A stretch of DNA of 64,000 bases from Leuconostocaceae bacterium ESL0723. Its GTDB lineage: Bacteria > Bacillota > Bacilli > Lactobacillales > Lactobacillaceae. Position numbers and translations under genes: made by a program. The stretch lies in assembly GCA_029392055.1 (NCBI GenBank), contig CP113928.1, positions 866,501 to 930,500 of the forward strand, given 5' to 3'. Of this stretch, positions 6,316-10,297 are shown one piece after another (positions within the stretch are counted from its first letter, which is position 1; the number at the start of each line of letters is the position of its first letter). The notes beneath the pieces are model-generated. The model saw nothing but the letters and a program-made list of their open reading frames with translations, ran no database searches and was not told the origin of the DNA.

Positions 6316-7080
6316 TTAGCGTTGTTCGGGCTGGAGCCGACTAGCAGCCTGGGCCTGAGTCGCTTTTTTCAACAACCAGGACACGCCGGCAATCACGGAG
6401 TTCATGATGTAATAGGCGTACTTGGCCACGTTAGCGTAGTTCCTAAGCGTCAAGGACTTCCCCAGCTGGGCCAGGTTGTAAACGGCCCAGAAACTCCACT
6501 GAGAAGGCAGCTTCAAGACGTTTAAAACATTGGCAATCAGCGACAGGGTAAAGGTAATCGAGGCAAAGTAGAAGAGCACATCCAGGGGCCAGTGGGCCAA
6601 GTAGGCATAGGCAATGTAATTTAGGCCAAATCCCAGGACAAAGGCGCCAATGATAATGCCGGTTAAAATCCAGGCAAAGTTTTTCTGGTAGCCAAAGCGG
6701 CCGGCATACTTATTTTTCCAGTTATAACTGGCCTGCCAATTCAAATAGACCGAAACCGGGTAGGTCAAAATGGCACCAACATTTCCTAGTAAGAAATCAA
6801 CCAGGCCGGAAAAGAAGGCGGTCATCCAGCCGATAATGTTACCCCAGTTGTTCAACTTGGCCGTTAAGCGCGTTGACATAATTGAAGCAATCGATGACAG
6901 CGTTGAAATAATCCCAATCAAAGGCAGGGACAGAATGGGGTTGTGCATCGAGCGAAAGAGCCAGGAAGCACTAAGCGGGGTCTTATAGTACCCCAACACC
7001 CAGACCGTTACTAAAACAATAGCAATCCCGATAACATCAAAGTACTTTGAGTCCGAAATTGCCTGCAATCTTTTATCCAT
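6316..7080 (-). CDS. pnuC: PnuC-type nicotinamide riboside/NAD-precursor transporter
   Basis: This 254-residue protein has about seven hydrophobic helices. The PnuC features are a WGNIIGW segment, the stretch SVYLNWQASYNWKN, and the C-terminal QWSFWAVYNLAQLGKSLTL with YYIMNSVIAGVSW, which correspond to the conserved W/N/Q substrate-pore motifs. PnuC proteins move nicotinamide riboside by facilitated diffusion, trapped by intracellular phosphorylation. The gene stands alone between the metal importer and hisS. Its ATG is preceded by GGAGG embedded in a structured leader (separate entry), suggesting control by NAD status. Exact substrate is inferred. Confidence 0.85.
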   Translation of the reverse strand: MDKRLQAISDSKYFDVIGIAIVLVTVWVLGYYKTPLSASWLFRSMHNPILSLPLIGIISTLSSIASIMSTRLTAKLNNWGNIIGWMTAFFSGLVDFLLGNVGAILTYPVSVYLNWQASYNWKNKYAGRFGYQKNFAWILTGIIIGAFVLGFGLNYIAYAYLAHWPLDVLFYFASITFTLSLIANVLNVLKLPSQWSFWAVYNLAQLGKSLTLRNYANVAKYAYYIMNSVIAGVSWLLKKATQAQAASRLQPEQR

Positions 7081-7085
7081 GATTC

Positions 7086-7140
7086 ATCCTCCAGTTTGTT
7101 TTTATTATCGGAGCCGTACGGGGAAGAAAACGCTCCGTTA
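7086..7140 (-). promoter_or_regulatory. Structured pnuC leader, candidate NAD+-II-like riboswitch
   Basis: The minus-strand leader can form a hairpin with arms CGGAGC (7132-7137) and GCTCCG (7109-7114). Its loop contains CTTCC (7122-7126), which is complementary to the pnuC Shine-Dalgarno GGAGG (7088-7092). That gives an H-type pseudoknot masking the ribosome site. The strings CCCCGTA and ACTGGAG also occur in my recollection of the Lactobacillales pnuC-motif (NAD+-II) riboswitch. The pairing is seen in the sequence; the class assignment is from memory and unverified. Confidence 0.45.
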
Positions 7141-7230
7141 ACAACGTCCATTGTAACAGGGTTAGTCAAATAATTTTATTAAGATTGTTATTTTTTGGAC
7201 AAACGGGACTTTCCAAAAATGAGACCAACC

Positions 7231-7252
7231 AAAAAAGTCCCCTTTGGGGACT
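7231..7252 (-). terminator. Terminator after the metal-binding protein gene
   Basis: On the minus strand AGTCCCC-AAA-GGGGACT is followed by T6, shortly after the binding-protein stop codon. Confidence 0.88.
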
Positions 7253-7263
7253 AATCTTTTGTA

Positions 7264-8205
7264 CTAACGTGATAACCCTTCTGAAATTTTATCCAGGTTC
7301 CACTTCATCATGCCGTAGTAAGTGTCACCGGGCTGACCCTCCTTGGCCAGCGAATCTGTGTAGACCTTGGAATAAATTGGCAGACCAGTTTCCTTGGATA
7401 CCTTTTCCATCGACTTAGGTGAAACCGAACTTTCAACGAAAAGCGAAGGTACCTTAGTCGCCCGAATCTTTTCCAGCACTAACTTCATTTGTTCGGGGGT
7501 TCCCTGGGCTTCCGTATTAATTTCCCAAATAAAGGCCGGTGTCAGGCCATAAGCTGCTGAGAAATATTTGAAAGCGCCTTCTGAAGTCACCAGAAGCTTT
7601 TTATCGTCCGGAATGGCACTGAACTTGGTCTTGGCGTCCGCATCCAGGGCGGTGAGCTTGGCCACGTAGGCGTCTGCATTTTGCTTATAAGTCGCCGCAT
7701 TCTTGGAGTCCTTTTGGCTCAAGACCTTCTCAATGTTGCGGACATACTTAATCCCATTTTGGATGTCTAACCAGGCGTGGGGGTCGAGTTCGTTCTCCTT
7801 GCCCTTGTCAGTTAGATGCTTAGCTTCGACCCCTTCTGAGACCGCAAAGACCTGCTGATCAACCTTCTTACCAGCCTGTTCATACATTTTCTTAAACCAA
7901 CCCGAACCGCCAGTCTCCAAGTTCAACCCGTTATGAAAAAGCACATCAGCTTCCTGGGTGGCTTTGACGTCTTGGGGACGGGGCTCATACTCGTGGGGAT
8001 CATTTCCCCGTGGTACCAGCGTGTGTAGGTCAACCTTATCACCGGCCACCTCAGCGACCATGTCACTAATAATTGAGTTGGTCGAAACTACCTGTAGGTG
8101 ATTGTGCTGTTTGGTTTTGCCACTCTGACTGCTATTTAAAAACCAAACGACCCCACCTAAGACAGCAACCACTGCCAAGGCGACTGCCAGTAAACGTTTT
8201 GTCAT
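7264..8205 (-). CDS. Mn/Zn-type ABC transporter substrate-binding protein
   Basis: This 313-residue protein is a cluster A-I (ZnuA/MntA/PsaA-type) metal-binding protein. The four expected ligands are visible: His71 (NDPHEYEP), His143 (DPHAWLD), Glu209 (VTSEGAFKYFS) and Asp284 (YTDSLA). Glu as third ligand is typical of the manganese/iron PsaA-MtsA group rather than zinc-specific ZnuA, and there is no His-rich loop. The N-terminus is a hydrophobic segment (about residues 5-23), but the protein contains no cysteine, so there is no lipobox; it may stay anchored by an uncleaved helix. It is the last gene of the importer operon, 63 nt after the permease. Confidence 0.85.
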   Translation of the reverse strand: MTKRLLAVALAVVAVLGGVVWFLNSSQSGKTKQHNHLQVVSTNSIISDMVAEVAGDKVDLHTLVPRGNDPHEYEPRPQDVKATQEADVLFHNGLNLETGGSGWFKKMYEQAGKKVDQQVFAVSEGVEAKHLTDKGKENELDPHAWLDIQNGIKYVRNIEKVLSQKDSKNAATYKQNADAYVAKLTALDADAKTKFSAIPDDKKLLVTSEGAFKYFSAAYGLTPAFIWEINTEAQGTPEQMKLVLEKIRATKVPSLFVESSVSPKSMEKVSKETGLPIYSKVYTDSLAKEGQPGDTYYGMMKWNLDKISEGLSR

Positions 8206-9850: not shown

Positions 9851-10156
9851 TTACTCTCCTAATGCAGCGCATTTATTCGAGAATTTGATTTTAACTATTT
9901 TGTTGTCAGCCGGTATTTCTACACAAAAAAGGCGCGTTTAAAATCTAAGAATCGAAATAAGTGCGTCGTGCGTGCTTGTGCGGTTGTCATTTGAAAATTA
10001 GTGAACTATCAACTGGTTGCTTCTGGACTGACACAGCTAGTTGATAACCATCAATTTATCAGAAACATCATATCGGCATTACCTAGCCGCTGTCAATCAA
10101 ATTGAGTTTGAAGGACAATTATGGTCTTTCTAAATACTTGGTTAAAAATGAATTCA
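9851..10156. other. Intergenic region without a recognisable gene
   Basis: About 300 bases lie between the metal-importer operon and the tRNA-Ser/typA terminator. I find no convincing reading frame. The stretch holds the promoter region of the importer (AT-rich near 9880-9950) and a long-spaced inverted repeat: TATCAACT at 10007-10014 and AGTTGATA at 10039-10046. Sequence around the repeat is not obviously coding on either strand. It could be a small RNA or the remains of a lost gene; neither is supported beyond the repeat itself. Confidence 0.5.
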
Positions 10157-10190
10157 CCAAAAAAGCGACCCAAACCATGGGTCGCTTTTA
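10157..10190 (-). terminator. Terminator after typA and tRNA-Ser
   Basis: AAAAGCGACCC and GGGTCGCTTTT form an 11-bp stem, followed on the minus strand by T-rich sequence. It lies downstream of the tRNA and is the first terminator after typA on that strand. Confidence 0.85.
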
Positions 10191-10208
10191 TTTTAGCAAG
10201 GTCACAAA

Positions 10209-10297
10209 GGAGCTAGCGGGATTTGAACCCGCACACCGCCAAATGACGGCTCGACGGATTTCGAGTCCGCTGCAGTACCAGATTGTGCCATAGCTCC
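10209..10297 (-). tRNA. tRNA-Ser (anticodon CGA)
   Basis: The minus strand folds as a class II tRNA. The acceptor is GGAGCTA/TAGCTCC, with a short D stem GCA/TGC. The anticodon arm GCGGA-CTCGAAA-TCCGT gives anticodon CGA (reads UCG). A long variable arm with a CCGTC/GGCGG stem identifies serine, and the T arm is GCGGG-TTCAAAT-CCCGC. CCA is not encoded. The base after the acceptor (discriminator) is T, whereas bacterial tRNA-Ser normally has G. It lies 33 nt downstream of typA and may be processed from the typA transcript. Confidence 0.9.

Follow-up and report, generated by a model that had tools for sequence, protein, structure and literature searches.

A pnuC-family gene and its leader

The window, i.e., the whole 64-kb stretch of DNA that was analysed, carries a pnuC-family gene on its minus strand, with a short structured leader directly in front of the start codon (Table 1). 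The encoded protein matches Pfam PF04973 (E 4.5e-10, 40.2 bits, cut-off 27.3) and scores 19.8, below the cut-off of 42.45, against the NCBIfam PnuC equivalog, and its family profile matches the nicotinamide riboside (NR) transporter PnuC of 4qtn (E 1e-4). Because a terminator-like hairpin and a weak promoter-like site lie between the leader and the upstream gene, pnuC is probably transcribed on its own, apart from that gene. A second PnuC scored 129.6 bits in the genome and a protein of the NAMPT/NAPRT family 123.2 bits; the genome further encodes a candidate NadR-like NMN adenylyltransferase/kinase (320.6 bits, just under the cut-off of 341.15), with which imported NR would be usable. Elsewhere in the window, a plus-strand ORF at 10102-10297 overlaps a tRNA match on the minus strand (10208-10297) and is a mechanical ORF, probably no gene.

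On the minus strand, from position 7137 to 7078, the leader reads CGGAGC-GUUUUCUUCCCCGUACG-GCUCCG-AUAAU-AAAAA-C-AAACU-GGAGG-AUGAAUC-ATG. An earlier note on this DNA had described a CGGAGC/GCTCCG hairpin with a loop sequence CTTCC complementary to the pnuC GGAGG, and both are indeed present, the pairing of CUUCC with GGAGG including one U-G. Hairpin and Shine-Dalgarno (SD) complementarity alone are weak evidence and frequent by chance, as 645 of 5000 dinucleotide shuffles of the leader, in which the SD was kept, contained a 6-bp stem without mismatch whose loop offered five consecutive bases pairable with GGAGG (G-U allowed). The folding energy of the leader is ordinary (z -0.06 for the minimum free energy) and lends no support.

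Table 1. Features of the pnuC locus (window positions; base numbers such as C5 follow the Streptococcus parasanguinis crystal RNA, PMC10085692, accessible text)
Feature	Position	Strand	Basis or remark
pnuC-family gene, proposed to be under control of the leader	6316..7080	minus	ORF, 254 aa; PF04973 NMN_transporter
Putative P1a-less NAD+-II-type riboswitch, whole element	7087..7137	minus	R2 32.4 bits, E 2.7e-6; R1 17.3 bits, E 0.019
GGAGG, SD sequence and predicted pseudoknot 3' strand	7088..7092	minus	sequence; 7 nt to ATG at 7080
AAAAAC, putative minor-groove A5 strand (AAAAA 7103-7099) and C46	7098..7103	minus	C46 invariant in 35/35 aligned P1a-less leaders; roles from PMC10085692
P1 helix 3' strand GCUCCG, first base G34	7109..7114	minus	sequence
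A31, C32, G33 of the core	7115..7117	minus	sequence; C32 and G33 invariant in 35/35
P1 loop GUUUUCUUCCCCGUACG	7131-7115	minus	sequence
CCGU linker at the place of Streptococcus P1a	7118..7121	minus	sequence; comparably short linker in other P1a-less leaders
CUUCC, predicted pseudoknot 5' strand (C10, U12, C13, C14)	7122..7126	minus	sequence; numbering from PMC10085692
GUU, G6, U7 and U8 of the ligand core	7129..7131	minus	invariant in 35/35; roles from PMC10085692
P1 helix 5' strand CGGAGC, last base C5	7132..7137	minus	sequence; P1 covaries in relatives
Candidate promoter TTGTCC-18-TAAAAT	7173..7202	minus	weak, consensus match alone, 9/12
Terminator-like hairpin, end of upstream gene (7264-8205)	7236..7252	minus	sequence

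Match to NAD+-II RNAs and covariation of P1

Position by position, the leader was compared with the S. parasanguinis NAD+-II crystal RNA, whose sequence and contacts are given in the accessible text of PMC10085692. Shared with Streptococcus NAD+-II are C5, G6, U7, U8, C10, U12, C13, C14, A31-G34, A41-45, C46, A47 and GGAG, which includes every letter of ligand site 1 (C5, G6, U7, C32, G33, G34, A45, C46, A47) and the loop letters C10 and U12-C14 set against GGAG for the pseudoknot. P1 has 6 bp with G6-C32 on top and is followed by AAAAA, separated from P1 by a spacer that is longer than in Streptococcus, and a long spacer is also found in L225 and similar leaders; between C46 and GGAG stands one base more than in the crystal RNA, as in Convivina and others. 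The element adjoins a PF04973 gene, as expected from the class, and its host lies outside Streptococcus. The suspicion in the earlier note that the topology might differ from the known class is borne out, as helix P1a is absent, with CCGU in its place, and for this reason we file the element as a variant rather than as canonical NAD+-II. It also differs around the second quadruple, U8:A50:A31:G15, and at G9: U8 and A31 are kept, G9 is replaced by UU, G15 by C and A50 by U, and these changes would disturb this quadruple layer. Three leaders of the Leuconostoc group (L213, L214, L217) share the G15C change with it.

Two covariance models were built, both with the genus of the window excluded: R1 from 18 leaders (5 from Streptococcus and 13 from Lactobacillaceae, members with P1a included) and R2 from 34 P1a-less leaders. 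According to the tool itself, their E-values are approximate. With R2, the leader scored 32.4 bits (E 2.7e-6) in the window, where the next match reached 11.2 bits (E 0.49), and it was the sole match at E<=0.01 in the 1.43-Mb genome (E 6.0e-5). The R1 match was weaker (17.3 bits, E 0.019 in the window and just 0.43 in the genome), and R1 with strict filters missed G000 and G001 in the family search. Rfam 15 gave no match at 7087-7137, at gathering level or at E<=10, and its silence is uninformative, since it also left L003 and L006, two canonical NAD+-II leaders of Streptococcus, unmatched, as it did the control locus L043; a search with RF03013 (nadA/NAD+-I) gave no match in the genome of the window and likewise none on its controls. 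A full NAD+-II descriptor (5-bp P1, GUU..CG, A-tract, C, AA, SD), drawn up after the family had been seen, was found at one place in the window, in none of 20 shuffled windows and in none of 20000 shuffled leaders. That the leader is a chance hairpin beside a ribosome site, as the frequency of the simpler pattern in shuffles might suggest, is very improbable given this descriptor, the R2 match and the homologous motif 5' of pnuC in related genera. The same overall plan of hairpin, A-rich strand and SD pseudoknot would be seen in a preQ1-I riboswitch or some other small pseudoknot of the H type, and a weak R1 match (25.8 bits) in L243 lies 5' of a gene that we take to encode a queT-like transporter; with pnuC as the adjoining gene, a fit to the NAD+-II core and model and the Rfam result above, we see next to no likelihood in this identity.

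Covariation was scored on MAFFT alignments built without structure. Among 18 leaders (alignment A1), five of the six P1 pairs were changed on both sides, and the whole-structure score was 0.283 vs 0.063 for shuffled alignments; among 35 P1a-less leaders, six of seven pairs were changed on both sides, with a score of 0.490 vs 0.096 for shuffled alignments and 0.022-0.104 for slid controls, which count most here, as the leader sequences are related and the shuffles alone do not give a probability. The copy in the window adds no independent covariation because its genus is represented by just one more genome, which around the start codon is identical at all but 1 of 120 nt. All 18 leaders of A1 have the same pseudoknot pairing, which therefore has no covariation support in that alignment, and a simple contiguous pseudoknot score, which reaches just 3 bp for canonical members, is no proof of a pseudoknot. 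In Leuconostoc, loop and tail have changed jointly, so that CCGUU(U)/(A)AACGG could form 5-6 bp, a change that is no more than suggestive of the pseudoknot. Three Leuconostoc loci (L045, L047, L052; genus label g17) carry two NAD+-II-like units in tandem 5' of pnuC, the 3' unit with this re-paired pseudoknot and the 5' unit without a ribosome site, where CAG could pair with CUG.

The assignment to the pnuC-motif/NAD+-II family that the earlier note had proposed is thus supported by the positional match, by R2 and by the compensatory changes seen among relatives, a check that the note had named. The covariance-model search that it had also suggested succeeded with our own models and stayed empty with Rfam, equally on canonical controls, and the strings CCCCGTA and ACTGGAG that it had read as NAD+-II signatures are unconserved in the aligned members, whose diagnostic strings are GCGUU, UCC, ACGGC and AAAAACAAA.

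The altered G9, G15 and A50 raise the alternative of decay, i.e., a homologous NAD+-II riboswitch that has lost ligand binding, so that the leader would now be a mere constitutive ribosome site. Most named relatives score higher with R2 than the window copy (e.g., Convivina with 61.2 and 60.1 bits), and the second pnuC and the NAMPT/NAPRT-family gene of the genome have no motif in the stretches examined, nor has the NadR-like gene. However, P1 is perfect and even 6 bp long, the site-1 letters and the SD pairing are all kept, and G15C is found in other leaders too, and on balance we hold decay to be unlikely.

Distribution in Lactobacillaceae and beyond

PnuC-family proteins were searched in 301 genomes, of which 56 had a match, and the leaders of 30 loci were read. 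R1 matched 92 of 397 Lactobacillaceae genomes at E<=0.1. Strong matches (E<=2e-7, at least 43 bits) numbered 69 in 65 genomes, with four more at 1e-4 to 1e-3; all 69 and 12 weaker ones were examined, and further matches listed at E 0.016-0.09 lie outside this set. Helix P1a was absent in 62 of the 69 strong matches and present in seven, and 67 lay directly 5' of a PF04973 transporter gene, the remaining two being followed by a frame-broken pnuC and by no ORF of 60 aa, respectively. Six of the 81 rows, weak R1 matches (L240-L245) in front of genes that we presume to be pyrG-like, queT-like and others, were dropped as unrelated leaders; after addition of the window and L038, 61 distinct leaders resulted, of which 54 lack P1a. 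Loops of 12-17 nt account for 54 of these leaders and loops of 28-35 nt for seven.

Of 75 downstream proteins scanned, 72 belong to PF04973, two to NAMPT (L238, L239) and one is the frame-broken pnuC (L036). The two NAMPT cases, in two Fructobacillus genomes (genus label g2), have P1a-less NAD+-II-like leaders (L238:151-197, L239:152-198; ~31 bits) that adjoin a nicotinamide phosphoribosyltransferase-like gene (NAMPT_N, NAPRTase), a gene association that is new for the class. L036 (Convivina intestini) has a canonical leader and an in-frame TGA in pnuC, i.e., a pseudogene or a sequencing error. L095:1501-1546 is a perfect P1a-less leader with no ORF of 60 aa behind it, either an orphan riboswitch after gene loss or a riboswitch 5' of a very short ORF. 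In 11 of the 61 distinct leaders, the pair C5:G34, which adjoins the ligand phosphate, is swapped to G:C (L043, L050, L051, L053, L054, L057, L058, L063, L076, L080, L237 and others are listed with the swap).

Gene context bears on another alternative, a working NAD+-II relative with a changed ligand, some other nucleoside or cofactor carried by the divergent PnuC subfamily. The window PnuC scores under the equivalog cut-off, part of the core letters differ, and PnuC relatives are known for thiamin, riboflavin and perhaps deoxynucleosides, according to the accessible text of PMC7749635. Against this, every nicotinamide-touching site-1 letter is kept, and the motif also stands 5' of PnuC proteins at 94-110 bits, well over the cut-off, and of the NAMPT gene, all of NAD salvage, which makes a changed ligand quite unlikely.

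In the order sample, a match at E<=0.001 was present in 29 of 395 genomes, each of them a Streptococcus or a member of Lactobacillaceae. The phylum sample yielded one of 398, a Streptococcus already known. In the class sample, searched with R2, 11 of 299 genomes matched at E<=0.01, among them nine of Streptococcus and the genome of the window, the last being one match (L254 in G1275, 26.3 bits) that lies in a repeat and was discarded. Among named genomes (the best 80 of 146 relatives, in which the genus of the window appears as 'Lactobacillaceae bacterium L1_55_11'), 15 of the 17 loci from Lactobacillaceae had an R2 match at E<=0.011 immediately 5' of pnuC, several of which are expected by construction because the same genomes trained R2. 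These 15 come from Convivina, Fructobacillus, Leuconostoc, Limosilactobacillus, Fructilactobacillus, Apilactobacillus and other genera; the two misses were L106 and the partial L137. None of the other 63 named loci (Streptococcus copies of this PnuC subfamily, Flavobacterium, Veillonella, Gemella and more) had an R2 match at this level, the best E being 0.093. The Streptococcus homologues of the window PnuC subfamily (among L107-L136, 35-40% identical) have no NAD+-II leader, unlike other Streptococcus PnuC, and may have another substrate.

The earlier note had spoken of a class described in Lactobacillales, which is too wide for the literature: the motif was described from Streptococcus only (accessible text of PMC7749635; also PMC8632094), and a mention of 'Streptococcus and Haemophilus influenzae' in PMC10085692 is taken here to concern the transporter. 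Within the accessible literature searched, we found no report of NAD+-II outside Streptococcus or of a natural P1a-less form. NAD+-II-type leaders without P1a are common across Lactobacillaceae, in a class so far reported, in the accessible sources, from Streptococcus only.

Proposed mechanism and comparison with known systems

Our preferred reading, which we consider very likely, is that the leader acts in cis as a translational OFF riboswitch, a minimal member of the NAD+-II class that lacks helix P1a. Its ligand, pseudoknot and direction of control are proposed by analogy with the Streptococcus structures, in which, as far as the accessible text of PMC10085692 goes, G33 pairs with C46 around the nicotinamide and the NAD+ adenine lies on the end of P1a. 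When nicotinamide metabolites (NMN, NR, NAD+) are abundant, one ligand would lie in plane with G33:C46 at site 1, stacked between P1 and the G6-C32-A47-U7 layer; the A-tract would then dock into P1 and the loop CUUCC would be locked onto GGAGG, so that ribosomes would be unable to start pnuC. Scarcity of ligand would let the pseudoknot open and the transporter be made. The window copy, divergent at G9, G15 and A50, may differ in ligand and affinity.

As the loss of P1a removes the platform for the NAD+ adenine, NMN and NR are predicted to matter more than NAD+ for P1a-less RNAs, and the C5:G34 to G:C swap is consistent with tuning towards the phosphate-free NR; in the Streptococcus RNA, C5U abolishes NMN-driven assembly (PMC10085692, accessible text). 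Tentatively, P1a-less NAD+-II could even be a distinct, dominant Lactobacillaceae subclass that reads NMN/NR rather than NAD+, with the same switch on the Fructobacillus nicotinamide phosphoribosyltransferase gene and a tandem, re-paired version in Leuconostoc, a proposal that we find possible but doubtful.

If the preferred reading holds, a rare riboswitch class is widened from one genus to much of Lactobacillaceae, and nature's dropping of P1a leaves a metabolite switch of ~45-50 nt that overlaps its own ribosome site. The discovery paper, in its accessible text, presents a model that includes P1a, where P1a alone covaried and P1 did not (PMC7749635); P1 covariation is now supplied, together with a covariance model where Rfam 15 has none matching. 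The divergent PnuC subfamily would be linked to nicotinamide riboside, and the natural variants would be useful for asking which part of NAD+ the RNA reads.

Among other known systems, the preQ1-I riboswitch is, like the proposed element, a small H-type pseudoknot that uses the SD; it has another core and other genes, and the Rfam search above found no match to its model at the leader. NAD+-I (nadA motif, RF03013) resembles the element in being NAD+-related and proposed as a translational OFF switch, but has another fold, recognizes the ADP end and is found in Acidobacteria (PMC7749635, PMC10085692; accessible texts). The closest counterpart in core architecture is the P1a-less two-piece NAD+-II RNA (5-15 + 3-25) in the accessible text of PMC10085692, which assembled in vitro strictly in dependence on NMN and failed to do so with site-1 mutations; that RNA is a laboratory construct of S. 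parasanguinis sequence, whereas the element in the window is a natural single strand.
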